Below are positions 66 through 22,496 of a DNA stretch of 34,389 nt, one piece after another. Source of the DNA: a virus; the IMG/VR virus record IMGVR_UViG_3300017991_000257, positions 1-34,389 of that record; one strand, given 5' to 3'. Position 1 is the stretch's first letter. Each line of letters opens with the position of its first letter. Position numbers and translations under genes: made by a program. Under the pieces are notes generated by a model, which was not told the origin of the DNA, ran no database searches, and was given only the letters and a program-made list of their open reading frames with translations.

Positions 66-2057
66 TTGAGCGCCTACAGGAAAACGGCCCGGGAATCCGC
101 CCGGGACGTTGGCTTGCACCTACCGACGGCGCCGGAACTGTTGAGGAAAAAGCGCGCGCTACGAAAGGACCTAAAAAAATTCCTGGTTGGGGTTTTGCCG
201 GAAAGATTTTTCCGCCCGTTTTCAAGGGACCAGGTTAGATTTATTTCGGAACTCCAAAATTCAATCATGCACGGGGGGCAACAGGCCGTAGCATTGCCCC
301 GCGGCGAAGGCAAGACGACAATAATTATCGGCGCCATTCTTTGGGCAATCCTTTACGGTTGGCGCCGGTACGTCGTCGCGGTCGCGGCCGACCAGGGGGC
401 CGCGGAACGATTGTTGGACGGCATACGGGCCGCCCTGGATTCGTCCGAAGTTGTTAACAAGTTGTTTCCCGAGGCGGCCCATTATGCCCGCGCCCTGGAA
501 AACTTGCCGCAACGCGCGGCCGGCCAGTTGGCAAACGAGACGCCGACGGGGATAACCTGGCGCGCGAACTGCCTAATATTGGCCCAGGTCGCGGCGGGGC
601 CGGACGAATACGCGCCGGGCGCCGTTATTGAGGCCCGGGGGTTGACCGGACGAATTAGGGGGTTGCAACAAACGTTGCAAGACGGGACCGTAGTTAGGCC
701 GGATATGTATTTCATAGACGACCCCCAAACCCGGGAATCCGCGAAGTCCCCCGAGCAATGCCGGGACCGTTTGGAAATAATCCGGGCCGATATCATGGGG
801 GGCGCCGGCATAGGCCGCGACGTCGCCGCTATTATGGCTTGCACGGTAATTTGCGAAGGGGATTTGGTCGACCAGGTCCTTAACGAATGGCGAAGCATAC
901 GGGCCGCGGCGTTGTACGTCGAACCCAAGGCCGCGAATACCCTATGGCGGGAATACGTCGATATGCGGCGCCGGGCGCGCCGGGACGGTACGGAAAGGAA
1001 AATATGCAACGCGTTCTATCGAAGGCACCGCCGGAAGATGGACGCCGGCGCCAAGGTCGGGAATCCCCATAGGCGGAACGAAGGGGATTTGTCGGCGTTG
1101 CAGACCATCTACAATTATTTGGCCGACAACGGCGAGGCGTCGTATAGGTCGGAACTTCAAAACGACCCCAGGGGCCAGGAATCGGCGCTATATCAAATCA
1201 CGGTTAAAACCGTCGAATCCAGGTTTAACGGGCTGGAACGTTGCGACGCCCCCGAGGATTGCCATTTCATAATAGCCGGCGTCGACGTCAACTTTTACGC
1301 GTTAAATTGGGTTGTCGTCGCGGTCCGCGGGGATTTCGCTACATTCGTTGTCGACTATGGCCGGTACCCGGCCCACGGGGAACCTTTATGGCAACCAGGC
1401 GCCAAAGGGACGGCCGAGGCGGCAATATATATGGGCGTCGTCGACCTGGCGGACCAGTTGCGGCTACGCCATCCCCGGCTAGGGTTGTTCGCGGTTGACG
1501 GCAATTACGCGACGGATACCATTTGCCGGGCCGTTGACCATTTAGACCGAACCCTGCCGTTGCGGGTTATGGTAATGCGCGGCGTCCCGTCGGACCGCTA
1601 CAGTTTGCCGGCGGACGGCAAAAAGAAAATCCAGGACGGCCAGGAATGTTTCTACGGCGTCGGCGTCCGCGGCCCCCATGTTGTTTTCAATTCGCACTAT
1701 TGGCACAAGCGCGCCCAGGAAGGTTTTTTGTTGACCCCGGGCGCCCCTGGCGCCATAAGTCTATGGGGGGATAGCAACGCGGACCATTCGACATTCGCGG
1801 CCCATGTTTGCGCGGATAGATTGTTGGCAGTTGAAACCAACAAGGGAAAGGAAACTCATAAATGGTCGAGGAAACCAAACGACCGAAACGATTTGGGGGA
1901 CGCATTGGTAATGGCAATGGCGCCGGCGTCTTTGTTCGGCGCCCAGGCGACGGACATCCCGCAACGCATAGCGGCGCCGGCCGACGCGCCCGCGGCGCCG
2001 GCAACGCCCAAACCGCCGGCAAGGCGCCGGCAACGCGTTAGGACCATAGAAATATAA
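66..2057 (+). CDS. terL: Terminase large subunit (TerL)
   Basis: This is the ATP-driven DNA packaging motor and nuclease that docks on the portal. A Walker A motif, PRGEGKTT, lies at residues 78-85 and a Walker B, MYFIDD, at about 214-219. The C-terminal RNase H-like nuclease half shows acidic positions in AGVDVNFY (about 404-411), AVDGNYATD (about residue 480) and NDLGDALVMA near residue 620. The length of 663 aa is on the long side for the family. The listed start is a TTG at 66. The same frame has no stop back to base 1 and the TTG has no good ribosome binding site, so the true start may lie upstream of the window. A small terminase was not recognised; it may also lie upstream. The radical SAM gene follows after 15 bases. 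Confidence 0.93.
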   Translation: MSAYRKTARESARDVGLHLPTAPELLRKKRALRKDLKKFLVGVLPERFFRPFSRDQVRFISELQNSIMHGGQQAVALPRGEGKTTIIIGAILWAILYGWRRYVVAVAADQGAAERLLDGIRAALDSSEVVNKLFPEAAHYARALENLPQRAAGQLANETPTGITWRANCLILAQVAAGPDEYAPGAVIEARGLTGRIRGLQQTLQDGTVVRPDMYFIDDPQTRESAKSPEQCRDRLEIIRADIMGGAGIGRDVAAIMACTVICEGDLVDQVLNEWRSIRAAALYVEPKAANTLWREYVDMRRRARRDGTERKICNAFYRRHRRKMDAGAKVGNPHRRNEGDLSALQTIYNYLADNGEASYRSELQNDPRGQESALYQITVKTVESRFNGLERCDAPEDCHFIIAGVDVNFYALNWVVVAVRGDFATFVVDYGRYPAHGEPLWQPGAKGTAEAAIYMGVVDLADQLRLRHPRLGLFAVDGNYATDTICRAVDHLDRTLPLRVMVMRGVPSDRYSLPADGKKKIQDGQECFYGVGVRGPHVVFNSHYWHKRAQEGFLLTPGAPGAISLWGDSNADHSTFAAHVCADRLLAVETNKGKETHKWSRKPNDRNDLGDALVMAMAPASLFGAQATDIPQRIAAPADAPAAPATPKPPARRRQRVRTIEI

Positions 2058-2072
2058 CGAAAGGCCGCAACC

Positions 2073-3110
2073 ATGTTCCCGACGATTTCTACCGGCAAGA
2101 CCTACGGCGCGTTTTTCCCTTGGAAGGCGCTATTATACCCGGAAAAATGCCGGGCAATATTGCGCGGGGAGTTTCCGCCCCCGGTTACGATTCACGTTTA
2201 CCCTACCAACCGTTGCAATAACAATTGCGATTTTTGCATTATGCGGCGCGAACGGTTGACCGGCGGGGACCTAAAGCCGGCCGTCGCGGAAAAAATCGTA
2301 GCCTACGCGAACGCTAACGGCGTCGGGGCCATTCACGTTTCCGGCGGCGGGGAACCCACGTTATGGAACGGCGATATGCGGATTTTCGGCGCGTTCAAGG
2401 GGACCAAGGTATTATCGACAAACGGGCGCGCGCTATCATTGCAAACCGCGCGGTTGTTCGACCGGATTAGAATTAGCGTTAACGCCGGCACCGCGGCGAC
2501 CTACGAAACACAAACCGGGACGCCCCCGGGGACCTGGGATTATTTGGTCGCCGGGATTACGGACATATGCCAACGACCGGACCGACCGACCGGCCAGGAA
2601 ATCGGCCTTGGGTTTGTGGCGACGCCGGCAAACTGGCGGGAAATCCCTATGGCCATTCGTTTGGCCCAGGACGTCGGCGCCGATTTCGTCCATATCCGGC
2701 CGGCATATTATCCCCGGGGGACGGTCGACGACGCGGAAATCCGGCGTTTGGCCGCGGCGATTTGGCATTGTTGCGAGGCTTGCGAGGGTAATAGTAACGG
2801 GGTCCAGGTCTACGGGTCGTCGGAAAAGTTCGCGGGATACTGGTCGCCCCGGGGATTTCGCAAGTGCAAGGCGTCGCCGTTACACGCCGTAATTGCCGCG
2901 GACGGCCGTTTCCTGGTTTGCCAGGACGTTTTCGAAAGGTTCGGGGATTTGAATAACCAGGGATTCCGCGAGGCGTGGGAATCCCCCGACCATGCCGCGG
3001 CAATTGCAAGGATAAACGTCGACGATTGCCCGCGTTGCGTCATGGGCCGACCAAACGAAATATTAGAGCATATATTCGAACGGGACGAAATACTAGCGGG
3101 GTTGCTATGA
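2073..3110 (+). CDS. Radical SAM protein with SPASM-like C-terminal cysteines
   Basis: This protein has a radical SAM cluster motif CX3CX2C (C48, C52, C55), followed by VSGGGEP at residues 89-95, the usual SAM-binding turn. The C-terminal part has more cysteines (C265, C283, C319, C322 and a C233/C234/C237 group), as in SPASM/Twitch proteins that hold a second iron-sulphur cluster and often act on peptides. The substrate cannot be read from the sequence. It is the first gene of a tight four-gene set with three glycosyltransferases: its stop overlaps the next start (ATGA at 3107-3110). I infer a role in modifying a virion peptide or its sugar. It is not QueE-like, because QueE has a different cysteine spacing. 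The start ATG follows a GAAAGG ribosome binding site. Confidence 0.88.
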   Translation: MFPTISTGKTYGAFFPWKALLYPEKCRAILRGEFPPPVTIHVYPTNRCNNNCDFCIMRRERLTGGDLKPAVAEKIVAYANANGVGAIHVSGGGEPTLWNGDMRIFGAFKGTKVLSTNGRALSLQTARLFDRIRISVNAGTAATYETQTGTPPGTWDYLVAGITDICQRPDRPTGQEIGLGFVATPANWREIPMAIRLAQDVGADFVHIRPAYYPRGTVDDAEIRRLAAAIWHCCEACEGNSNGVQVYGSSEKFAGYWSPRGFRKCKASPLHAVIAADGRFLVCQDVFERFGDLNNQGFREAWESPDHAAAIARINVDDCPRCVMGRPNEILEHIFERDEILAGLL

Positions 3111-4003
3111 AGGTTGCAGTCATGTATAGCGGCGTCGGCGGACCGAACGGCGCGGATTACGTCGCGGAATTTCTAGCCCGGGGGTTTTCCCCCATTTGTG
3201 AAACTACGCTAATAGGCCGGCACGGGTCCTATCCGGTCGAACATTTGAAGATACCCGCGGGGACGGATTTGGTTGTGCATTCGTCGGGGTTCAACCTAAC
3301 CCCCGACGTTGTCCGACGGATTCGGGACGCGGCGCCGTTGTATCTATGGACGCATAACGACGAGATAGGATGGTGGCGCGACCGAATCGCCCCGGTTACA
3401 AATTTGGTCGACGTCCATTTTTCCTACACGCGCCGGCATGGTTGGGGCGACCACGTTAAATACTTGCCATTGGCCGCGGACCCCACGATATATTTCCCCA
3501 TGGAAAAGCGCGAGGATTACGACCTGGCGCTAATCGGCGCCGCGCGCCATTGGCGGAAAACCTTTTGCGAACTGCTAGAACGTCGCGGGGGTTTCCGTTG
3601 CTATTGGGGTTGGGCAATGTCGACGCCGGCCGCGGACGTCAACCGTATTTATAACGCAACGCGGGTTGTAATAGCGCCGGTCCAGGATTGCGACGAGGAC
3701 GAACCCGGCCGCGCCTGGGGTTGCCCCTGTAGGACGTTCGACGTTCCAGCGGCGGGCGCGTTCCAAATCCAGGTCGACCGCGGGGGGCTGGCGGACGTTT
3801 ACCCGGACGCCGTCGCGTTGCCGGCTATCCGGGACATAGACGCGGCCGCCGATTTTTGGCTGGCGGAAATCCGGTCATGGCTGGACAACCCCGGCGCCCG
3901 TCGCGACCAGGCCGACCGCGATTACCGCGAAACCATATCGCGACACACCTACAGGCACCGCGCCCAAACCATGATTGACCATTTTAACGGAAAGGGGTTG
4001 TAA
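3107..4003 (+). CDS. CgeB-like glycosyltransferase (GT-B, family 1 type)
   Basis: This 298-residue protein resembles the CgeB / Glyco_trans_1_2 group, which transfers sugars from nucleotide-sugar donors. Visible hallmarks are LPLAADPTIYFP (about residues 124-135), the CRTFDVPAAGAFQIQ segment that matches the R-x-(F/Y)-E-(I/V)-xA-x-G-A pattern, and the C-terminal HTYRHRAQTM helix with family-typical H and R residues. I chose the ATG at 3107, which overlaps the preceding stop as ATGA. The frame is open further upstream but that part only shadows the radical SAM gene. The stop overlaps the next start as TAATG. Donor and acceptor are unknown. In context it probably extends or starts a glycan on a phage protein. 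Confidence 0.82.
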   Translation: MKVAVMYSGVGGPNGADYVAEFLARGFSPICETTLIGRHGSYPVEHLKIPAGTDLVVHSSGFNLTPDVVRRIRDAAPLYLWTHNDEIGWWRDRIAPVTNLVDVHFSYTRRHGWGDHVKYLPLAADPTIYFPMEKREDYDLALIGAARHWRKTFCELLERRGGFRCYWGWAMSTPAADVNRIYNATRVVIAPVQDCDEDEPGRAWGCPCRTFDVPAAGAFQIQVDRGGLADVYPDAVALPAIRDIDAAADFWLAEIRSWLDNPGARRDQADRDYRETISRHTYRHRAQTMIDHFNGKGL

Positions 4004-4776
4004 TGTCGACGACGACAATTTCCGCGATTTGCCCGACGTATGCTAGGCCGCATTTACTCCGCGAGGCCGTCGAAAGTTTCCGCCGGCAACGGTTCAAGGG
4101 GACCGCGGAATTGATAGTATACAACAATTATCCCGACCAAACGATTATCATAGACGAATCCGATTTTCCCCGGGGGTTTTCGGTCAAGGTCATAAACGAC
4201 CAGGAACCCCCGGATTCCCTGGGGGAATGTTACAACCGGGCCATAGCCCACGCCGGCGGCCGCTATCTTTGCCCCTGGGAAGACGACGACATCTATTTAC
4301 CCTGGCGCCTTGCCGACGCCGTCGAGGCCCTGGAATCGAACGGCGCGGAATATCATAAAAGGCCCCATGCCTGGTTTTACAATTACGGGCGAATCGTCGG
4401 GCCGGTTTCCAATCTTTTCTTTTGCGCGGGGACCTGGGCCGCGGGTTTGTTCCGCCGGGTCGGGGGTTGCCGCGGGGATTTCGCGGCGACGGACCAGGCA
4501 TTGGAAGCGCGATTGGTTGGCGGAACCGACGACGCGATTACCGAACCGCGGGACCTCAAAAAAATCTTTTATATCTATCGTTGGGCCGGCGTAACCGCGC
4601 ATTTGTCCGGGATTAAGGACGGCCGCGAGGGGTTCGAACAGACCCGGGCGATTTTGCGGCGGGGGCAACCTACCGGGAAAGTTTTAATCCGTCCGGGTTG
4701 GGCGCGCGACTATGTCGCCATGGTCGAAAACTGGATTTCTAGCCATCCCGGAATGGGGGAGGAATACGACGTATGA
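4003..4776 (+). CDS. GT-A fold glycosyltransferase, family 2 type
   Basis: The N-terminus (TISAICPTYARPHLLREAVE) is the usual nucleotide-sugar binding strand and helix of GT2 enzymes. The metal-binding motif appears as WEDDDIYLP at residues 92-100. The protein has 257 residues and ends without a membrane segment, so it is a soluble enzyme. It is translationally coupled on both sides: TAATG with the CgeB-like gene and ATGA with the next glycosyltransferase. The family and motif are clear. Which sugar it moves and onto what is not. Together with its neighbours it could build a glycan of two or three sugars. Confidence 0.88.
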   Translation: MSTTTISAICPTYARPHLLREAVESFRRQRFKGTAELIVYNNYPDQTIIIDESDFPRGFSVKVINDQEPPDSLGECYNRAIAHAGGRYLCPWEDDDIYLPWRLADAVEALESNGAEYHKRPHAWFYNYGRIVGPVSNLFFCAGTWAAGLFRRVGGCRGDFAATDQALEARLVGGTDDAITEPRDLKKIFYIYRWAGVTAHLSGIKDGREGFEQTRAILRRGQPTGKVLIRPGWARDYVAMVENWISSHPGMGEEYDV

Positions 4777-6068
4777 ATAAACGCTATACCGTCGTTATCG
4801 CGGAACGCAACGAACCCGACCTAAAGGCGACCGTTTCAGATATCCGCGCAAATTCCGCCCTGGCCGACGTCGTCGTAATTAGCGACAAGACGGGACGCGG
4901 CCCCCAGGCTTGCCGGCATTACGGGATAACCCAGGCGAAAACGGATATCGTTATAATAGTTGACGGCCATATGAGATTCGCGCCGGGCAGTCTAGACAAA
5001 ATGGCCGCCGCGGCGTTGCCCGGCGACGTCGTAGGTTGCGCGCTATGCCATCATAACGCGGATTTATCCTTTGAGGATTCCCCCTATGCCGGCGCGCGTT
5101 GGGCCTGGAAATCCGAGGACCGCGGCCAATATTTCGTCCTAACGGGCAAATGGCGGGACCGCGCGGACCTGGGGGCTATACCTTGCGTCATGGGCGCCTG
5201 CTATTCGTTTTCGCGGGCCTGGTACGAAAAAATCGGGTCCCCCTGGCGTTTGGGTCGGGGTTGGGGGTTGGACGAAGAAACCTTATCCCTGGCGACCTGG
5301 CTAATGGGGGGGCGTTGCGAACAGGTCGCGGCGGAAGTTGCGCACCAGTACCGGATACAATCGACGTTGCCCTACAGGTTGTCGGCCGCCCAATCCGCCG
5401 GCGTTTGGGCAAACCGGATAACATTCCTGGAAATGTTGCCGTTGCCCGACCAGGACCGCGACGAATTGACGGCATGGCTACACCAAAACGGGGCGTTGCG
5501 GGGTCCCGCCGGCGTCGCGGTTCGAAACATGGTCGACCATGTAGCGACCGCGGCAATCCGCGAAACCCTGGCCGCGGGGCCGCGAACCTTTGCCGAATGG
5601 AAAACAACGTTTATAACTCAAACCGAAGGGGAGCCGCAAATGAGAAAAGAACTATTGGACCGCGCCAAACGCGCGGGAATCGACGGCGCGAAAATGACCA
5701 ATGCCGAGATTAAAAAGGCCCTGGCGGAACCCGACGCCGGCAAGGTCGCGGAAATGGTCGCGGGGGCCGGCGCCACTATGGAAAGGCCGCCGGCGGGATT
5801 CCTGGGGACGTTGGGAACCCCGGCAAAGAAAAAACGGGGGCGCCCGAGGAAAACGACGACGACCGCGACGACGCCGGCAACGCCCCCGCCGGCGCGCGCG
5901 GAAAGAATCCCGAACAGGATAACCGCGGACCTTGGGGCGCCTTGTGTCCATTGCGGCCATAGGTACGACCATAAAATAACAAATACGTTCCCGAACGGCA
6001 ACCGGCGCCGGGTTTGCGGGAAATGCGGCCGGCCATTCATTACCCGCGAAATCCCGCCCGGCGAATAA
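4773..6068 (+). CDS. Polypeptide GalNAc-transferase-like glycosyltransferase fused to a DNA-binding-like tail
   Basis: Residues 1 to about 200 form a GT-A domain with the layout of polypeptide GalNAc-transferases: start strand YTVVIAERNEPDL, a DGH metal motif at 64-66 (DxH in that family), a GACYSFSRAWYEKIG segment at 141-155 (family: GGxFxxxRxYFExIG), WGLDEETLSLATWLMGG at 164-180 (family: WGGENLELSFRxWxCGG) and a conserved late histidine, H191. That family puts the first sugar on Ser or Thr of a protein. From residue 290 on, the sequence changes character: a SAP-like helix pair, an AT-hook-like KRGRPRK, a Thr/Pro-rich linker and a CXXC/CXXC zinc ribbon. This C-terminal part has its own start signal and is listed separately. 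Start ATG overlaps the preceding stop (ATGA). Confidence 0.8.
   Translation: MNKRYTVVIAERNEPDLKATVSDIRANSALADVVVISDKTGRGPQACRHYGITQAKTDIVIIVDGHMRFAPGSLDKMAAAALPGDVVGCALCHHNADLSFEDSPYAGARWAWKSEDRGQYFVLTGKWRDRADLGAIPCVMGACYSFSRAWYEKIGSPWRLGRGWGLDEETLSLATWLMGGRCEQVAAEVAHQYRIQSTLPYRLSAAQSAGVWANRITFLEMLPLPDQDRDELTAWLHQNGALRGPAGVAVRNMVDHVATAAIRETLAAGPRTFAEWKTTFITQTEGEPQMRKELLDRAKRAGIDGAKMTNAEIKKALAEPDAGKVAEMVAGAGATMERPPAGFLGTLGTPAKKKRGRPRKTTTTATTPATPPPARAERIPNRITADLGAPCVHCGHRYDHKITNTFPNGNRRRVCGKCGRPFITREIPPGE
5640..6068 (+). CDS. Nested in-frame start: SAP-like / AT-hook / zinc-ribbon protein
   Basis: An ATG at 5640 lies in frame inside the glycosyltransferase gene and is preceded by a strong ribosome binding site, AAGGGGAG at 5626-5633, with 6 bases between. 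It would give a 142-residue product: a helix pair resembling SAP/HeH DNA-binding motifs (residues 3-29), an AT-hook-like KRGRPRK (65-71), a Thr/Pro-rich stretch and a zinc ribbon (C102, C105, C126, C129). This could be a separate DNA-binding protein, made either alone or also as the tail of the enzyme. The layout suggests two genes that were joined by loss of a stop codon. Independent translation is inferred from the ribosome binding site, not shown. Confidence 0.6.
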   Translation: MRKELLDRAKRAGIDGAKMTNAEIKKALAEPDAGKVAEMVAGAGATMERPPAGFLGTLGTPAKKKRGRPRKTTTTATTPATPPPARAERIPNRITADLGAPCVHCGHRYDHKITNTFPNGNRRRVCGKCGRPFITREIPPGE

Positions 6069-6175: not shown

Positions 6176-6400
6176 ATGGCTTTGTTAACCGTTGCCGAAC
6201 AGTTGGAACAGGTCCAGGCCGCGATAACCGCCGTATTGTTGAACCAATCTTATACCCTTGACGGCCGGACCGTTACCCGCGCGAACCTTGACGCATTGCA
6301 ACGGCGCGAGGAATATTTAACGAAACGCTACAAAGCCGAAACCGGCGCCCGTCCCGTCCTGTCAACCATGAATATGGAAGGGGTCGGGTACGATGATTAA
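6176..6400 (+). CDS. gpW-like head-tail connector or small head protein
   Basis: This 74-residue protein sits just upstream of the portal, where lambda gpW-type proteins are found. The pattern of an N-terminal helix (AEQLEQVQAAITAVL), a short turn with YTLDGRTVTRANLDAL and a second helix RREEYLTKRY matches the small helix-hairpin-helix of gpW-like proteins. gpW plugs the portal channel and joins head to tail. The ATG at 6176 follows a G-rich ribosome binding site. Its end overlaps the portal start by 8 bases, which suggests coupled translation. The family call rests on position, size and pattern only. Confidence 0.6.
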   Translation: MALLTVAEQLEQVQAAITAVLLNQSYTLDGRTVTRANLDALQRREEYLTKRYKAETGARPVLSTMNMEGVGYDD

Positions 6401-7904
6401 GACAACGCAACCGCGCCCCTTGCGTTCCGCCGTCGACCTGGTCGACACTAACGGCGCCGCTATTCGGCTAGGCTATAACGCGGTCCAGGACAAAGGCCGC
6501 CGGCAACCCCCCCGGTCCAAAATCGTTAGCGAAGACAAGGAACTAACGAAGGTAAAACGAAAAAAACTTATCGCGACGGCGAAGGACCAACCCCGGAACA
6601 ATTCGATTTTAGCCTGGATGCTACGCCGGCATTTAGACTATGTTAGCCGGTTCGATTTGCATATTCGAACGGGAAACCCGGACCTGGACAAGCGGGTTTA
6701 TTTTCTGTTCAAGCGCGCCGCGCGTCGCGAAAATTTCGACATTGCCGGGCGCCATGACCGTTACGCATTTATGCGGATTTTCGAGGCTTGCAAGACGATT
6801 GACGGGGACGCCGCGGCGCTAAAACTGGATTCCGGCCATTTGCAGGGGGTCGAATCCGACCTAATAACGACCCCGTCCAATTTGGACCAGGTCCCGAAGG
6901 AATTTAAGGAAAAAATATCCGATTTGGGGCTAGTGCTTAACGCCGCAATGAGGACGGAATATTTTTGCGTATGTTCCCGCGACCCGGACAATTCCAATAA
7001 CCGAATTTTCCAACAAATGGTAGCGGCCGCGGACGTCATTTTTGACGGGTATTTTACTAGGTTCAGTCAATCACGGGGAATAACGTTGTTCGCGCCGGCC
7101 TTGAATATGGCCGCGGACCTTTCCGAAACCCTGGAATGGGTCGCGTTAAAGGCTAAACTTCATGCCTTGTTTGGGCTGGCTTTTATGCGCCAGGCCCCCG
7201 AGCAAATGCGCTGGAACAAAACCGGATACGACGGGTCGACCGACAACGAAACCACGGACAAAAACCCCTACGAAGTCAACATAAACCCCAGGGGGATTTT
7301 TACCCTTGACCTGGACCCGGGCGACAAGGTCGAACCCGTCGAATCCAAGACGCCGTCCGGGGAACTGTTGGGTTTTTCCCGCGAGGAAATCCGAATGGTT
7401 TTGTTGGCGTTGGACATTCCATTTACGGCCTATGATTCCATGAAATCGTCGTTTAGCGCCAGGATTGCCGACCGTTCCGAATACGAGGAATCCGCGGAGG
7501 AAAAGCGAAGGAAAAACGCGGCCGTATTGCGGGAATATTCGGATTGGCGCCTAGACGATTGGTCCGAATCCGACGACAAATTGCCGGACCTTATGGCGGC
7601 CGCGAAAATCGACGCGGACGAATTAAAGGAAAAGGTCGAATGGATACCGACCGGGACGCCCTGGCTAGATAAGCGGAACGAAATCGCCGGCGACAAGGAC
7701 GCTATAAGTTTAGGCGTGGATTCCGCCGTCCGCGTCGCCAGGCGCCGCGGGATTGACGCATATCAAATAATCGACGAACAAGCGGAATTTTTGGCCTATG
7801 CCAAATCCAAGGGGGTCCCAATCTACGTTGCGGCCCCCGGCCAGGTCGCGACCGAGGAAACGCAACCAAACGCGCCGGACGAACCGGCCGACGACGGAGA
7901 ATAA
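6393..7904 (+). CDS. Portal protein (lambda type)
   Basis: This 503-residue protein forms the ring through which DNA enters and leaves the head. Features of the lambda-type portal group are the N-terminal basic region, the segment ATAKDQPRNNSILAWMLRRH (residues 61-80; typically an R-N-N/NP turn followed by a helix) and the long helical C-terminal half. Near 315-360 it has GELLGFSREEIRMVLLAL and a SSFSARIADRSEYEESAE stretch that matches the conserved nYSSaRa...e pattern of these portals. It overlaps the upstream gpW-like gene by 8 bases and is followed 2 bases later by the prohead protease. Confidence 0.87.
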   Translation: MIKTTQPRPLRSAVDLVDTNGAAIRLGYNAVQDKGRRQPPRSKIVSEDKELTKVKRKKLIATAKDQPRNNSILAWMLRRHLDYVSRFDLHIRTGNPDLDKRVYFLFKRAARRENFDIAGRHDRYAFMRIFEACKTIDGDAAALKLDSGHLQGVESDLITTPSNLDQVPKEFKEKISDLGLVLNAAMRTEYFCVCSRDPDNSNNRIFQQMVAAADVIFDGYFTRFSQSRGITLFAPALNMAADLSETLEWVALKAKLHALFGLAFMRQAPEQMRWNKTGYDGSTDNETTDKNPYEVNINPRGIFTLDLDPGDKVEPVESKTPSGELLGFSREEIRMVLLALDIPFTAYDSMKSSFSARIADRSEYEESAEEKRRKNAAVLREYSDWRLDDWSESDDKLPDLMAAAKIDADELKEKVEWIPTGTPWLDKRNEIAGDKDAISLGVDSAVRVARRRGIDAYQIIDEQAEFLAYAKSKGVPIYVAAPGQVATEETQPNAPDEPADDGE

Positions 7905-9282: not shown

Positions 9283-10242
<960 letters not shown>

Positions 10243-10314: not shown

Positions 10315-10725
10315 ATGACGACCCTGGCCCAACAGTTGGAAATAGACGCCGCGGCAATCCTGGCGGATTTGCCGAAAACCGATAGCGTCGTTTTCCAGGA
10401 ACCGACCGACACCACGGGCGACGACGGGCAAACGACCAGGACCTGGTCGACCCTGGCAACGGCCGATTGCAACGTAGAAGTTAAGGACGTCAAAGAGGAA
10501 TATATAAACGAACGGCTATCCGTTTTCCGGTTGTATTCCATCGTCGGGCCGTATATCCCAGGCATAACGGAAAAATGCCGGGCGATTTACCAAGGCAAAA
10601 CGCTAAACATTGCCAGGATAAAATCCGACGAAATAACGAAACGCTATCTAATGGTCGAAGCATACGCGGACAAGGATACATACGAAAACGCATTTATAAC
10701 CACTACGACGACGACGACAACCTAG
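10315..10725 (+). CDS. Head-closure / head-tail joining protein with 8-Thr tail
   Basis: This 136-residue protein is the first gene of the connector set after the capsid. Its small beta-rich composition and late region (GKTLNIARIKSDEITKRYLM, in which a strand is followed by a basic-charged strand) resemble SPP1 gp16 / HK97-type head-closure proteins. These seal the connector once packaging ends. It ends AFI followed by eight Thr, then TAG. The ATG at 10315 has a strong ribosome binding site (AAAGGGGAAACC). The family call rests on position and weak sequence pattern. The Thr tail is seen directly. Confidence 0.62.
   Translation: MTTLAQQLEIDAAAILADLPKTDSVVFQEPTDTTGDDGQTTRTWSTLATADCNVEVKDVKEEYINERLSVFRLYSIVGPYIPGITEKCRAIYQGKTLNIARIKSDEITKRYLMVEAYADKDTYENAFITTTTTTTT
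10699..10722 (+). repeat. Thr-codon run coding 8 Thr
   Basis: Eight Thr codons, using ACC, ACT, ACG and ACA, lie directly before the TAG stop of the head-closure gene. Confidence 0.93.
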
Positions 10726-10736
10726 CGGGGCGCGAA

Positions 10737-11162
10737 ATGGCGCGGACGGTAAATATTGACATTGTCGGGAACCTAACGCTACAACGCAAGTTGTTAGCGT
10801 TGGGGCGCCATGCCCAATTGCGGGTTTTGCGTCCGGCCGTTAAGTTTGCCCTAACCCCGATTAGCCGGCGCGCGCGAAGTTTGGCGCCGAAACAATCCGG
10901 CCTGCTGAAAAAGGCAATTAAGCCTATCGTATCGAAACGGGACGCCGTCGGCAAGGTTTGGGTCGACCCTAAAATAGTTGGCGAATACAACGGCGAAAAA
11001 CGTTGGCCGATGAAATATGCCCATTTGGTCGAATTTGGAAACAAGTACATGGCGCCGCGGTCGTTTATCCGCGCGGCCCGCGACCAGGGGCGCGCCGAGG
11101 CGCTAAACCGATTGCGCGAAAAGGTACGGTCGGGATTAAAACGAGAGGCGGCGCGCGCATGA
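10737..11162 (+). CDS. HK97 gp10-like connector protein
   Basis: This 141-residue basic protein has the hallmarks of the HK97 gp10 family: an N-terminal strand (TVNIDIVGNLTLQRKLLAL), the segment ALTPISRRARSLAPKQSGLL with conserved AR..aP...G.L, a strand-rich centre, and YAHLVEFGNKYMAPRSFIR near residues 98-116, the classic (Y/H)-(V/L)-E-x-G...aPFl motif. Proteins of this family act at the head-tail junction. I chose ATG 10737, 11 bases after the previous stop. The frame is open further back but only shadows the upstream gene. It has no Thr tail, unlike its neighbours. It overlaps the next start as ATGA. Confidence 0.85.
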   Translation: MARTVNIDIVGNLTLQRKLLALGRHAQLRVLRPAVKFALTPISRRARSLAPKQSGLLKKAIKPIVSKRDAVGKVWVDPKIVGEYNGEKRWPMKYAHLVEFGNKYMAPRSFIRAARDQGRAEALNRLREKVRSGLKREAARA

Positions 11163-11629
11163 TTCGAACGTCGTTAAGGCTTTACCTTTTGTCTGTCCAG
11201 GCCGTTTTTGACCTGGTCGCGGCCCGCATTTACGCGGCGCCGGCGCCCCAAGGCGTAACGTTTCCGTTTTTGATTATTTCGCGCCTGTATGGCGAATCCG
11301 ATTTGTCCCATGCCGGGATTTCCGGGCGCGCGAGGGAAACTTGGCAAATAGATTGTTACGCCAAATCCCAATCCGGCGTCGACAACCTGGCCGACGCCGT
11401 CCGCCGGGCCTTGCATGGGTTCGCGGGGGATATGCAGGGGACTAACGTTTCCTATTGTGCAATGGCCGTTAAACGCGATTTGACGGACATTGCGGGGGAC
11501 GCGTCCCAGGCCGCGGAATACCGCGTGGAAATGGAATTTACCATTACGCACGACGAAGCGACCGAGGATAGGATAACGACGACGACAACCACGACGACAA
11601 CCACGACGACAACCACAACGACAACCTAG
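11159..11629 (+). CDS. DUF3168-like tail terminator with 17-Thr tail
   Basis: This 156-residue protein matches the DUF3168 / tail-completion pattern: LLSVQAVFDLVAARIYAAPAPQGVTFPFLIISRL (with the AVxxLVxxRIY...P.G...P.i.i.ri theme), then ETWQIDCYAKSQSGVDNLADAVRRALHG. Such proteins cap the end of the tail tube next to the head. The final 17 residues before TAG are all Thr, coded by a 12-base unit (ACGACGACAACC) repeated about four times. I chose ATG 11159, which overlaps the upstream stop as ATGA. The tail sits outside the recognised domain. Confidence 0.82.
   Translation: MIRTSLRLYLLSVQAVFDLVAARIYAAPAPQGVTFPFLIISRLYGESDLSHAGISGRARETWQIDCYAKSQSGVDNLADAVRRALHGFAGDMQGTNVSYCAMAVKRDLTDIAGDASQAAEYRVEMEFTITHDEATEDRITTTTTTTTTTTTTTTTT
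11576..11626 (+). repeat. 12-base Thr-codon repeat coding 17 Thr
   Basis: Seventeen Thr codons before the TAG stop are built from a 12-base unit (ACGACGACAACC) with small changes at each end. The repeat unit differs from the 6-base unit in the capsid gene, so the two tails appear to have expanded independently. Confidence 0.94.
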
Positions 11630-11646: not shown

Positions 11647-12081
11647 ATGGCAAGCAAAAAGGACGGATTCGGGGTTCGGATTACCCTGGAAACTTCCGGG
11701 GTCACGTTCAAGGAAAAAAGCGTAACCCCCCCGGGAATCGAAGGCCAGGACCCGGTCGACGTAACCAACAATTCCAAGGCGAGTTTCCGCGAAAAGTACG
11801 CGCGCGCCTTGAAGGAAATCACGCCGGCGTCGGGTTCGGTCGAATACGACGCGTCGCAACTGGCGGCAATTAATGGCGCGGTTAACGTCCATCAGTTTGT
11901 CCGCCTGGATTTCGAGGAAGGCGACGCCCTGGGGTTTTACGGATTCCTCCGTAATTTCGTCCCCGACGAAATGACCGACGGCGAGGCGCCTACCGCGGCC
12001 CTGGAATTGGTCCCCTGCGGGGTCAACGCGTCCGGGACCGAGGAAGGAATTAACTACTACACGACCACGACCACAACCTAA
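11647..12081 (+). CDS. Major tail (tube) protein with 6-Thr tail
   Basis: This 144-residue protein lies between the tail terminator and the tail-assembly chaperone pair, which is the standard place of the siphovirus tail tube. It is beta-rich, with alternating strands (GVRITLETSGVTFKEKSVTPP, then a region with ALGFYGFLRN) that fit a tube subunit. It ends NYY followed by six Thr and TAA. Ribosome binding site GAAAGG precedes the ATG at 11647. The call rests mainly on gene order. The C-terminal Thr tail would decorate the outside of the tail shaft if it is exposed. Confidence 0.78.
   Translation: MASKKDGFGVRITLETSGVTFKEKSVTPPGIEGQDPVDVTNNSKASFREKYARALKEITPASGSVEYDASQLAAINGAVNVHQFVRLDFEEGDALGFYGFLRNFVPDEMTDGEAPTAALELVPCGVNASGTEEGINYYTTTTTT
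12061..12078 (+). repeat. Thr-codon run coding 6 Thr
   Basis: Six Thr codons (ACG, ACC, ACG, ACC, ACA, ACC) lie directly before the TAA of the tail tube gene. Confidence 0.93.
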
Positions 12082-15310: not shown

Positions 15311-15685
15311 ATGGCTAAAGGGGTCATATTTACGCGGGAATCGGCCGGGCGGATTGGCGCCGCGGTTCGACGCGTCGAAAAAATGCCCCAGGCCGACGCC
15401 GTAATCCGCGGAAACCATAAACCCCGGAGCGTCGCCGGGACGGCCCTATATTGGGCCGAAATAACCGCCAAAACCGACGACACAACCTATACCGGCGATA
15501 TCTATAACGACCGGAACGCGGACGCCCTGGCGTCGGACGTTACCGTCCGCGTCCATGACCTGGCCGCCGGCGAAACCATAGCAAACGGGACGTTTTTACC
15601 CGTCGCCCTGGAACCCTGGACCGAGGGGGACCCGGCCGAAACGGTTACATATTGGACCGTTAAACAACAAATAGGGTTATTCTAA
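15311..15685 (+). CDS. Putative small tail protein, unknown
   Basis: This is a 124-residue protein of unknown family between two distal tail proteins. The sequence is beta-rich with no membrane segment and no motif that I recognise. ATG 15311 is one base after the preceding TGA. The stop TAA overlaps the next start (TAATG), which points to coupled translation with the following tail protein. Its role in the tail tip is inferred from position only. Confidence 0.5.
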   Translation: MAKGVIFTRESAGRIGAAVRRVEKMPQADAVIRGNHKPRSVAGTALYWAEITAKTDDTTYTGDIYNDRNADALASDVTVRVHDLAAGETIANGTFLPVALEPWTEGDPAETVTYWTVKQQIGLF

Positions 15686-16404
15686 TGAGTAAGCGCCAGG
15701 TTGAAATTTGGTACGACGTCGTTAACGACGTCTTGAGAGACGCGAACGGCGAGGAATTGAACTCAATTCTATACCCGTTTATCTATTTCGAGGAACAACC
15801 GATATTCCAGGTCCATCTAGTGACCGATTCGGATTTGACCCCGCTAACGACCATAACCGGGTCCGTTTCGTTGTCCGCGGTCATAGACGACGATTTTGAT
15901 GCCGAAGACGACGCGTATTGTAAGACGCTAAATGCGGGAATGAACGTCGCCGGGGATTGGGTCGGGGGCGGAAACGCCGACATTTCCCAGGGGCAAGTTT
16001 CAATTAGGCTAGACGCCAACAATACCAACTATGAAACGAAAATCGGGGAAACCCGAAAGAAAAACGTTTATTTGGAAATCCAGGTTAGGGACGCCGGGGA
16101 CGATGAATTGCAAGCCGCGTTCGAATTTCCCATGGTCGCAAAGAACTTGCGCGACCAATCCGGGTCGGTCCCCCCGGCGCCCGCGGGCGACTACTACACA
16201 AAGACGGAAATAGACGCCCTGCTATTGGCTTGTTTGGTCCAGCCCGTCCGCTATCTCGAAATGGTCGACGTCGGCACCGAGGAACGGCGCTATTTCTACC
16301 TAGAAAACGGGATAGACACAAACGGCCCGACCACCACGACCACGACTACGACAACCACGACGACCACGACTACGACGACAACCACTACGACGACCACGAC
16401 ATAA
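15685..16404 (+). CDS. Tail protein with 24-Thr C-terminal tail
   Basis: This 239-residue protein has a beta-rich N-terminal part (YDVVNDVLRDANGEELNSI..., IYFEEQPIFQVHLVTDSD) and a GDYYTKTEIDAL segment near residue 168, a motif common in fibre or receptor-binding proteins where it starts a trimeric helical region. The chain ends with GP and then 24 consecutive Thr before TAA, the longest of the six tails in the window. The codons mix ACC, ACG, ACA and ACT. I cannot assign a family. Position between tail tip genes and adhesion genes suggests a surface-exposed fibre or upper baseplate part. Confidence 0.55.
   Translation: MSKRQVEIWYDVVNDVLRDANGEELNSILYPFIYFEEQPIFQVHLVTDSDLTPLTTITGSVSLSAVIDDDFDAEDDAYCKTLNAGMNVAGDWVGGGNADISQGQVSIRLDANNTNYETKIGETRKKNVYLEIQVRDAGDDELQAAFEFPMVAKNLRDQSGSVPPAPAGDYYTKTEIDALLLACLVQPVRYLEMVDVGTEERRYFYLENGIDTNGPTTTTTTTTTTTTTTTTTTTTTTTT
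16330..16401 (+). repeat. Thr-codon run coding 24 Thr
   Basis: Twenty-four Thr codons directly before TAA form an imperfect repeat that mixes ACC, ACG, ACA and ACT. The codon mix makes long slippage less likely than in the capsid tail, so the length is probably maintained at protein level. Confidence 0.94.
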
Positions 16405-21147: not shown

Positions 21148-21528
21148 ATGCGCGAACTAGACGCAAAGACGGTTTTAGCGATAGCCTGGCACCAGGCCCG
21201 GGTATCGCCGTTGCGTCCGGTTTGCGACGTAAATTGGCGAATCGCCGGCGGCCTGGCGTCGCGATTGGCGGCCAAAACCGGGACGGTTGCATGGTACGAC
21301 GCCAAGGCCGACGCGGTCGTAATCCCCGCCCAATATGCGTCGGTTTGCGCGGACGAAATGTACGCGCCGACGATAACCCATGAACTGACCCACGCTTACC
21401 AATGCTTGCGAATGGGTTTTATCTGCTTTCAATTCGCTAAAACCTTCCGCCGTCGGCTAATTGAGGCCGAGGCCGTCCGCGAGGAAAAGCGCGCGCAAAA
21501 AATACTAAACGTCGGGGTCCTGGACTAA
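21148..21528 (+). CDS. Putative zinc metallopeptidase (HExxH)
   Basis: This 126-residue protein has TITHELTHAYQ at residues 75-85 (H78, E79, H82), the HExxH zinc-binding signature of metallopeptidases, with a nearby EAEA (about 106-109) that could supply the third ligand. It lies between adhesion proteins, so it may cleave host surface proteins or a maturing virion protein. I saw no signal peptide. Start ATG 21148 follows the LamG stop by 5 bases and the TAATG links it to the next gene. It is short for a stand-alone peptidase, so it may be a minimal catalytic core. Confidence 0.62.
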   Translation: MRELDAKTVLAIAWHQARVSPLRPVCDVNWRIAGGLASRLAAKTGTVAWYDAKADAVVIPAQYASVCADEMYAPTITHELTHAYQCLRMGFICFQFAKTFRRRLIEAEAVREEKRAQKILNVGVLD

Positions 21529-22496
21529 TGGCGGGTTGGGATACAAATTGGGTCGAATCCCAGGGGATAGGAAAACTTCCCCTAAACGCGTTCAACCAAT
21601 TGCGCGCGGCCCTGGCGGAACGGGCCGCGGTAATGAATAGCGCGCCGACCTTGCCGGCGAACCTTTCCGCCGGCGAATTGCCGTCGGCGTCCTGGTTTAC
21701 GACGTTTCAATCCGCGGTTACGGCAATGTTGCCGGCGTCCCCGTCCGGGTCCCTTTATGGTTGGGTCAACCATAACGATAGCGCGACGCGCGTTGGCTAT
21801 TGGGACGGCGCGGCCTGGGGGGCAAACGCCGGGCCTAGTCTTTCGTTTTGGTCACAATCGACAATGCTAACGCAAATCGGGGCCGCGTCGCGGGTCGCGG
21901 CGCCAGGCGCCGGGGATATTTGGCAATCCGCGGCATGGGCCTACCAACAGTATCAGATACTAAATCAATTACGATGGTATGGCCGCCTGGCGCCGGAATC
22001 CTTGTCAACAAACGTATTTTACAAATACGGAAGTTCGGCCATAGACTATCCGACGGCCGCGGCAATCCATGACGCAATGGCATGGGCCGCGGTTTCGACG
22101 GCGCCCGTTCCCAACAATACCCGGAACAACTGTTGGCAGGCCCAGGCCGTCGGGGGGTCCTTTTGGAAACAATCCATTAAATGGGTTTGGTCCTGGTCAA
22201 CCTGGGGGGTATCGTCCGCGGAGTTCGACGTTTACGTTAGGCCGAACCAATTAACCGGCGGCCCCGTCTACAATATGCACACGGCAAACGTCGCCAACTA
22301 TGTAAAAAATATAACTGTCGCCCCTAGTACGGGATTTGAATACGGCGGGACCCACGCGCTAACCCCGACGCTAAACAATACGATTTGGTTCCGGGCGACG
22401 TCGAATTGGTACGGGCTATATCTAGTCGTCAAGTTCGACGTTTCGGGGGGATTCGACTACTACGACCCGGACCCGCCGGCTACGACGACGACCTAG
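21528..22496 (+). CDS. Putative tail adhesion protein with 4-Thr tail
   Basis: This 322-residue protein is not recognised by family. It is Trp- and Tyr-rich (for example WKQSIKWVWSWSTWGVSSAEFDVYV), with a helical start (LNAFNQLRAALAERAAV) and a beta-rich end. Its C-terminus reads DPDPPATTTT and then TAG, giving a short version of the Thr tail found on other virion proteins. It follows the metallopeptidase by a TAATG overlap and is the last gene before the lysis candidates. I infer a virion role from position and tail. Confidence 0.5.
   Translation: MAGWDTNWVESQGIGKLPLNAFNQLRAALAERAAVMNSAPTLPANLSAGELPSASWFTTFQSAVTAMLPASPSGSLYGWVNHNDSATRVGYWDGAAWGANAGPSLSFWSQSTMLTQIGAASRVAAPGAGDIWQSAAWAYQQYQILNQLRWYGRLAPESLSTNVFYKYGSSAIDYPTAAAIHDAMAWAAVSTAPVPNNTRNNCWQAQAVGGSFWKQSIKWVWSWSTWGVSSAEFDVYVRPNQLTGGPVYNMHTANVANYVKNITVAPSTGFEYGGTHALTPTLNNTIWFRATSNWYGLYLVVKFDVSGGFDYYDPDPPATTTT
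22482..22493 (+). repeat. Short Thr-codon run coding 4 Thr
   Basis: Four Thr codons (ACG ACG ACG ACC) directly before TAG. Too short to be convincing alone, but it fits the pattern of the five longer runs. Confidence 0.7.

Follow-up and report, generated by a model that had tools for sequence, protein, structure and literature searches.

A candidate virion O-glycosylation cassette with a radical SAM enzyme in a phage with poly-threonine protein tails

Background

Polypeptide GalNAc-transferases (the GALNT enzymes of family GT27) start mucin-type O-glycosylation of threonine (Thr) or serine (Ser). Phage glycosyltransferases often modify the surface of the host cell. Glycosylation of the proteins of the phage particle itself is known from few phages. 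According to the passages of PMC12363180 and PMC11256854 that cite Freeman et al. 2023, glycosyltransferases of mycobacteriophages Che8 and Corndog glycosylate capsid and tail-tube proteins. We describe here the IMG/VR virus record IMGVR_UViG_3300017991_000257, 34,389 bases long and called the window below, in which four overlapping genes for a radical S-adenosylmethionine (SAM) enzyme and glycosyltransferases lie between the terminase and portal genes, and in which runs of Thr form the C-termini of six structural-module proteins. On balance, these four genes probably form a virion O-glycosylation cassette that acts on the Thr tails and in which the radical SAM enzyme modifies the sugar. Virion glycosylation as such is thus already known in phages, but in the literature returned by our searches, as far as its texts were open, we found no earlier description of poly-Thr tails together with a matching cassette.

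The four-gene cassette

The interval between the terminase gene (66-2057) and a small gene followed by the portal gene holds four genes that encode proteins of 345, 298 (counted from the ATG), 257 and 431 amino acids and are joined in order by ATGA, TAATG and ATGA overlaps, so the arrangement given for 2073-6068 in the initial annotation of the window is correct. Ribosome-binding-like sequences precede genes 1, 3 and 4, and the start of gene 2 looks translationally coupled. In gene order the products match, above the Pfam cut-offs, Radical_SAM plus the SPASM model, Glyco_trans_1_2, Glycos_transf_2 and Glycos_transf_2. Three glycosyltransferases had been annotated here and three are present, except that the last gene is not a plain glycosyltransferase gene: it is an in-frame fusion of a GT2 domain ("GT2b", 4773-5639) to a helical/zinc-ribbon protein (5640-6068). 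The zinc-ribbon part includes an AT-hook-like stretch, KKRGRPRK, and has an ATG of its own (5640) with GGGGAG at the junction, which looks like a scar of the insertion of the cassette. The genes of the cassette, followed by those that flank it, are these:

2073..3110, + strand: radical SAM "twitch" enzyme (PF04055 2e-10, PF13186 1e-5; cysteine positions, family alignment and fold model)
3107..4003, + strand: GT-B type glycosyltransferase (Glyco_trans_1_2), probable extender (PF13524 4e-16; a GT17 in the sister phage)
4003..4776, + strand: GT2 glycosyltransferase "GT2a" (PWEDDDIYLPWR), probable extender (PF00535 2e-10; PglI/SpsA-like profile matches)
4773..5639, + strand: GT2 domain "GT2b", polypeptide GalNAc-transferase-like, probable first-sugar enzyme (PDB profile search; sister orthologue)
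5640..6068, + strand: helical and zinc-ribbon protein fused in frame to GT2b (a stand-alone gene in untailed relatives)
66..2057, + strand: terminase large subunit, left flank (GpA_nuclease in Pfam; PHROG TerL)
6176..6400, + strand: small conserved gene between the zinc-ribbon gene and the portal gene, flank of the insertion site (comparison with relatives)
6393..7904, + strand: lambda-type portal protein, right flank (Pfam; PHROG)

Poly-Thr tails

The C-terminal Thr runs of the six structural-module proteins are 15, 8, 17, 6, 24 and 4 residues long:

9283..10242, + strand: major capsid protein, 15 Thr at the end, proposed acceptor (PHROG 212)
10315..10725, + strand: head closure protein, 8 Thr at the end, proposed acceptor (PF05521, PHROG 25)
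11159..11629, + strand: tail terminator, 17 Thr at the end, proposed acceptor (PF11367, PHROG 347)
11647..12081, + strand: probable tail-tube protein, 6 Thr at the end, proposed acceptor (assigned by its place ahead of the tape measure gene; matches no family)
15685..16404, + strand: tail-module protein, 24 Thr at the end, proposed acceptor (the sister-phage orthologue is likewise Thr-tailed)
21528..22496, + strand: structural-module protein, 4 Thr at the end, a weak case (Thr run)

In five of the tails (57 codons) the Thr codons are mixed and near their genome proportions (p 0.12); the tails are therefore not a simple trinucleotide repeat, and what is maintained is the protein sequence. A search through 2.9 million viral contigs for ten Thr codons followed by TAA or TAG gave 70 stretches, many of which are the C-termini of phage genes, several per genome, and these include phages of other kinds. 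Our literature searches, over the texts they gave access to, found no description of such tails in phages, and the accessible part of the one survey that deals with phage low-complexity tracts makes no mention of them.

The cassette accompanies the tails

A capsid scan of viral contigs found 36 related contigs. The Thr-tailed capsids among them (those of the window, of a sister phage on contig L115, and of L112, L113 and L116) are split off from the rest by a branch supported at 100/99. Where it can be tested the cassette is confined to the Thr-tailed members: two of two Thr-tailed contigs (the window and the sister phage) have it, against none of the 17 untailed relatives whose terminase-portal interval is intact. 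Fisher's test gives p 0.006 when each contig is counted and 0.02 when near-copies are merged into 8 lineages. This upholds the link to Thr tails that had been suggested from the window alone. The interval is 0.3-1.6 kb long in the 17 untailed contigs, nearly all of which have in it a stand-alone zinc-ribbon protein of ~60-150 amino acids and a roughly 70-amino-acid gene product, and no PF04055 or PF00535 match was found in the 27 relatives' records searched. Stand-alone homologues of the zinc-ribbon protein were recovered at E 3e-21 and 2e-18, and in both cassette carriers this protein is fused in frame to the last GT2. We propose that, in the Thr-tailed clade, the cassette entered between the terminase gene and the zinc-ribbon gene, and that its last glycosyltransferase would then have become fused to the zinc-ribbon protein. 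Single-sequence scans of viral contigs with the window's radical SAM and terminase proteins, and a scan of bacterial genomes with its portal protein, gave no matches. We note that the helical and zinc-ribbon protein occupies the place between terminase and portal across the phage group (L121:2633-2932, L127:2055-2246, L118:2699-3115 and the window, 5640-6068), and that its ribbon, judged by eye, is similar to the small DNA- or RNA-binding ribbons of phages.

The sister phage is represented by one 19.5-kb contig (our labels L094, L110 and L115) that has the same module, with a portal protein 62% and a capsid protein 51% identical to those of the window, and its orthologous proteins carry Thr tails too. 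Its gene order before the portal gene is GT17 - radical SAM - GT2 - GT2/zinc ribbon. The GT2 pair is orthologous to that of the window (GT2a 35% and GT2b about 56-60% identical), but the two radical SAM proteins share no recognisable kinship (BLASTP E 0.24). The first glycosyltransferase, a GT17, is of another family than the window's GT-B enzyme. The four genes are thus not the fixed set that they had been taken for; judged from these two phages, the place and the GT2 pair are conserved, and the radical SAM enzyme and the third glycosyltransferase are exchangeable.

GT2b resembles polypeptide GalNAc-transferases

A two-sequence profile of the catalytic part of GT2b was compared with all solved structures (PDB), and up to E 0.1 it matched polypeptide GalNAc-transferases only: PGANT9 (1.6e-5), GALNT10, GALNT1 and the GALNT of entry 6s22. 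The alignment spans the DxH motif (D64, H66), WG.(D/E)E, GG and the histidine of V-x-H (H191). DxH and V-x-H are known manganese-binding motifs of the GALNT family, and the WG.(D/E)E region belongs to its Gal/GalNAc-T motifs. In GT2b these elements read D64-x-H66, W164-G..D-E-E..GG and H191; D64-G-H66 is found in both orthologues, and WG.(D/E)E..GG..E...V.H, with the third metal ligand histidine, aligns to GALNT. The tryptophan of the Gal/GalNAc-T motif is missing in some other phage glycosyltransferases. A control profile of GT2a matches PglI and SpsA and not the GALNTs. GT2b (gene 4) is probably the first-sugar enzyme, working like a polypeptide GalNAc-transferase, and GT2a and the GT-B enzyme are probable extenders, which agrees with the dedicated modification pathway, one starting enzyme plus extending ones, that the initial annotation had suggested.

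Similar enzymes accompany Thr-rich proteins in other phages. Four Thr-tail records outside the capsid family (G001, G009, G027 and G037) hold a GT2 with DxH and GGE(N/H); its profile has GALNT10 as best match (2.9e-7), and of 45 comparison records 44 gave it no match and one a weak match. GT2a itself has 42 further viral relatives, and in the main group of these all 14 contigs that span the region have, in this order, Thr/Ser-rich tracts within structural-module genes, a DxH GT2 and GT2a; no radical SAM gene of the window's family is found in this group. Such tracts are absent from the 32 untailed capsid relatives and from the 16 relatives of the radical SAM enzyme described below. In one phage group of this kind (L209:3836-6267 and its relatives L178-L216) the Thr/Ser-rich, mucin-like structural-module proteins adjoin the DxH GT2 and the GT2a homologue. 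By profile the L209 DxH GT2 matches PglI and not the GALNTs, so that its GALNT likeness is one of motifs only.

The radical SAM enzyme

Gene 1 had been called radical SAM/SPASM-like, and the first half of this name stands: the protein has the CX3CX2C motif (C48, C52 and C55, predicted ligands of the SAM cluster), matches PF04055 above the cut-off and has the corresponding fold, a partial TIM barrel, in a structure model (predicted local distance difference test, pLDDT, 78.6). The second half does not, since SPASM is defined by seven cysteines in the pattern CX9-15GX4C-gap-CX2CX5CX3C-gap-C (PMC6231123), of which the window enzyme lacks the CX5CX3C part and the last cysteine. It has only four auxiliary cysteines (C265-x12-G-x4-C283 and C319-x2-C322), for one predicted cluster, and so by cysteine count it is of the BtrN-like twitch type, a truncated SPASM with up to four such cysteines; C265, C283 and C322 are invariant in 10 viral relatives. 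No curated radical SAM equivalog family of NCBIfam accounts for it (the best, TIGR04317, gave 48 bits against a cut-off of 380). The family profile matches BlsE, MoaA, SkfB, anSME, DesII and BtrN. BlsE and DesII act on sugars.

We found 16 viral relatives of this enzyme (21-28% identity), nearly all of which adjoin genes for glycosyltransferases, NAD-dependent epimerases, methyltransferases or transketolase halves (neighbours assigned by Pfam for ten and judged by eye for the rest). In one (L156) the sugar island ends at head-tail connector-like genes, in another (L166) a GT17 gene comes before the radical SAM gene, which is also the order in the sister phage, and a plasmid relative in Streptomyces adjoins a UDP-galactopyranose mutase gene. 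The phages of these viral relatives have no Thr tails. The enzyme is thus not restricted to phages with Thr tails, and we rejected the idea, to which the initial annotation had tied its reading, that radical SAM gene and Thr tails are always found together. Of the two substrates that had been considered for it, peptide and sugar, the gene context favours sugar, and epimerisation or cross-linking of a peptide has become less likely. On contigs L152, L157, L158, L164 and L148, from large phages, the relative lies in a sugar island in the order transketolase half - radical SAM - TPP-enzyme/E1 half, and the protein in one of these (L164:4690-6813, 707 amino acids) has its CX3CX2C region split by an apparent intein (CFFCLVAGTRVVTENGESAIENIKTGDRVFAPDG).

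The sister radical SAM protein (L094:895-1662) is likewise of the twitch type. Its nearest plasmid relative, from Sodalis, has a normal CX3CX2C motif and sits in a 2-deoxy-scyllo-inosose synthase cluster, the setting of BtrN. Radical SAM proteins in other Thr-tail records are, by eye, of other kinds: QueE-like (G011), cobalamin-type (G014) and TAGT-associated (G027). The last of these phages has radical SAM - TAGT - TAGT - radical SAM (L099:6455-10023) and a separate DxH GT2 (L100:6892-7944).

Proposed pathway and its alternatives

In the pathway we propose, GT2b would put the first sugar, probably N-acetylhexosamine from a uridine diphosphate (UDP)-sugar, on Thr residues of the C-terminal tails in the manner of polypeptide GalNAc-transferases, the poly-Thr tails of capsid, neck and tail proteins serving as acceptors. 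GT2a and the GT-B enzyme would lengthen the glycan chain, and the twitch enzyme would alter a sugar by oxidation, epimerisation or deoxygenation, acting on the nucleotide sugar or the glycan and not on the peptide. The resulting coat might shield the particle, help it to adhere or mimic the host surface. A wider version, which we put forward tentatively and with less confidence than the cassette itself, is that a phage GALNT-like enzyme builds mucin-like O-glycans on poly-Thr tails that many virion proteins carry, and that a radical SAM enzyme finishes the glycan. This would be the phage equivalent of mucin-type glycosylation, its tails and enzymes having been acquired jointly, as a module that recurs in unrelated phages.

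Several observations weigh against this proposal. The GALNT match of GT2b is remote and comes from a two-sequence profile; its structure model, built with few relatives, reached a pLDDT of only 41.5; and it lacks the C-terminal ricin-type lectin domain, having a helical C-terminus and zinc ribbon. Because of the failed fold model and the absent lectin domain we do not assign GT2b to GT27 and take it only to work in the manner of that family. In a profile-profile comparison GT2b matched the DxH GT2 of other Thr-tail phages at E 0.007, no better than the GT2a control did, and we claim no close kinship between them. For three Thr-tailed capsids (L112, L113 and L116) the contigs begin within or beyond the cassette site and stand outside the count; the association of tail and cassette is that of one clade and may be a single evolutionary event; and most Thr-tail contigs of other groups, though these are mostly fragments, have no GT2 or radical SAM match. 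In a fold search with the radical SAM model (DesII Z 22.8, BlsE 21.6, BtrN 15.3) DesII, SkfB and BlsE fall within about 1 Z unit, that is, sugar- and peptide-acting enzymes tie, and the fold does not give a substrate class, in line with PMC6231123. Finally, the sister radical SAM protein has CQLAKAHPWC, with the middle cysteine missing, in place of CX3CX2C, and may be unusual or inactive.

Four other explanations were weighed. The one that survives best, though unlikely, is that the cassette acts on the surface of the host cell, changing capsule, lipopolysaccharide or wall polysaccharide so as to block superinfection or change serotype, with the Thr tails unrelated. This is the common role of phage glycosyltransferases mentioned above, and the large-phage sugar islands in which the radical SAM relatives lie could act on host glycans; however, the genes are embedded in the structural module between terminase and portal, the cassette follows the tailed capsid clade, and no flippase or membrane anchor was seen in the interval by eye, no dedicated topology tool having been run.

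Slightly less probable is protein glycosylation in which the radical SAM enzyme acts on the polypeptide itself, oxidising or epimerising Thr for instance, before or after the sugars are added. Twitch and SPASM enzymes do include peptide maturases, and fold matches to SkfB and SuiB tie with those to sugar enzymes, but the closest viral relatives lie in sugar islands, and their phages have neither Thr nor Ser/Thr tracts, the plasmid setting of the sister enzyme's nearest relative points the same way, and no RRE-like peptide-binding domain was noted.

We regard it as improbable that the cassette glycosylates phage DNA to give a hypermodified base, with the fused zinc ribbon directing GT2b to the DNA. 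The AT-hook-like stretch of the fused protein and the TAGT set of the Thr-tail record G027, which is of a DNA-modification type, would suit this explanation. The stretch is missing from the zinc-ribbon protein of the sister phage, however, and the zinc-ribbon protein occurs without any glycosyltransferase in the untailed relatives; the window has no match to TAGT or to a thymidylate-synthase-type hydroxymethylase, and its glycosyltransferases do not match TAGT (the Tet_JBP search of the window had no positive control); the cassette follows the Thr tails, and its best profile match is to protein glycosyltransferases.

Equally improbable is that the tails are neutral expansions driven by slippage, that the glycosyltransferases serve otherwise and that the two occur together by hitch-hiking, since the single clade and the spread of tail lengths from 4 to 24 are offset by mixed codons that follow genome Thr usage and by tails on six structural-module proteins that recur convergently in several unrelated phage groups.

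If virion O-glycosylation by this cassette is correct, the occurrence of acceptor tails and enzymes together as a module would allow glycosylated virions to be recognised in metagenomes by a sequence rule, a poly-Thr C-terminus together with a DxH-type GT2. It makes testable whether phages have a GALNT-like initiator, whether O-glycans are naturally attached to homopolymeric Thr and whether a twitch enzyme can tailor a sugar that is linked to protein. A sugar coat could affect the adhesion or recognition of particles, and the cassette enzymes could serve as a compact tool for making O-glycoproteins in bacteria.

Comparison with known systems

The window shares with Che8 and Corndog phage-encoded glycosyltransferases and virion proteins as acceptors, here proposed ones, as far as the excerpts of the papers cited above describe those phages. 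The Che8 capsid protein ends in ...KTGS and the major tail protein in ...SDGS, neither of them with a poly-Thr tail, the Che8-group glycosyltransferase genes lie near the genome 3' end (PMC11256854) and not between terminase and portal, and the relevant parts of PMC12363180 and PMC11256854 describe no radical SAM gene for that group. Phage MW202801 has a radical SAM gene (product 27% identical), then a GT2 gene and later a GT-B gene in its structural module; it differs in having no Thr tails, in its additional PhyH, methyltransferase and NodB-like genes, and in the position of the set, which adjoins the capsid gene on its far (after) side. The TET/TAGT DNA hypermodification sets, which pair a TAGT-type glycosyltransferase with a base oxidase or hydroxymethylase, likewise combine radical SAM and glycosyltransferase genes in phages, but the window is without TAGT, and the G027 set lies outside the structural module. 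The radical SAM enzyme has its core in common with BtrN, DesII and BlsE, and one four-cysteine auxiliary cluster site as in BtrN (PMC6231123, PMC9012708), at about 15% identity and outside any curated equivalog family. GT2b differs from the GT27 enzymes by a zinc-ribbon tail in the place of their lectin domain, and the similarity is remote; it shares with them the profile match, the DxH motif, a Gal/GalNAc-T-like motif, the third metal-binding histidine and a Thr-rich proposed acceptor.

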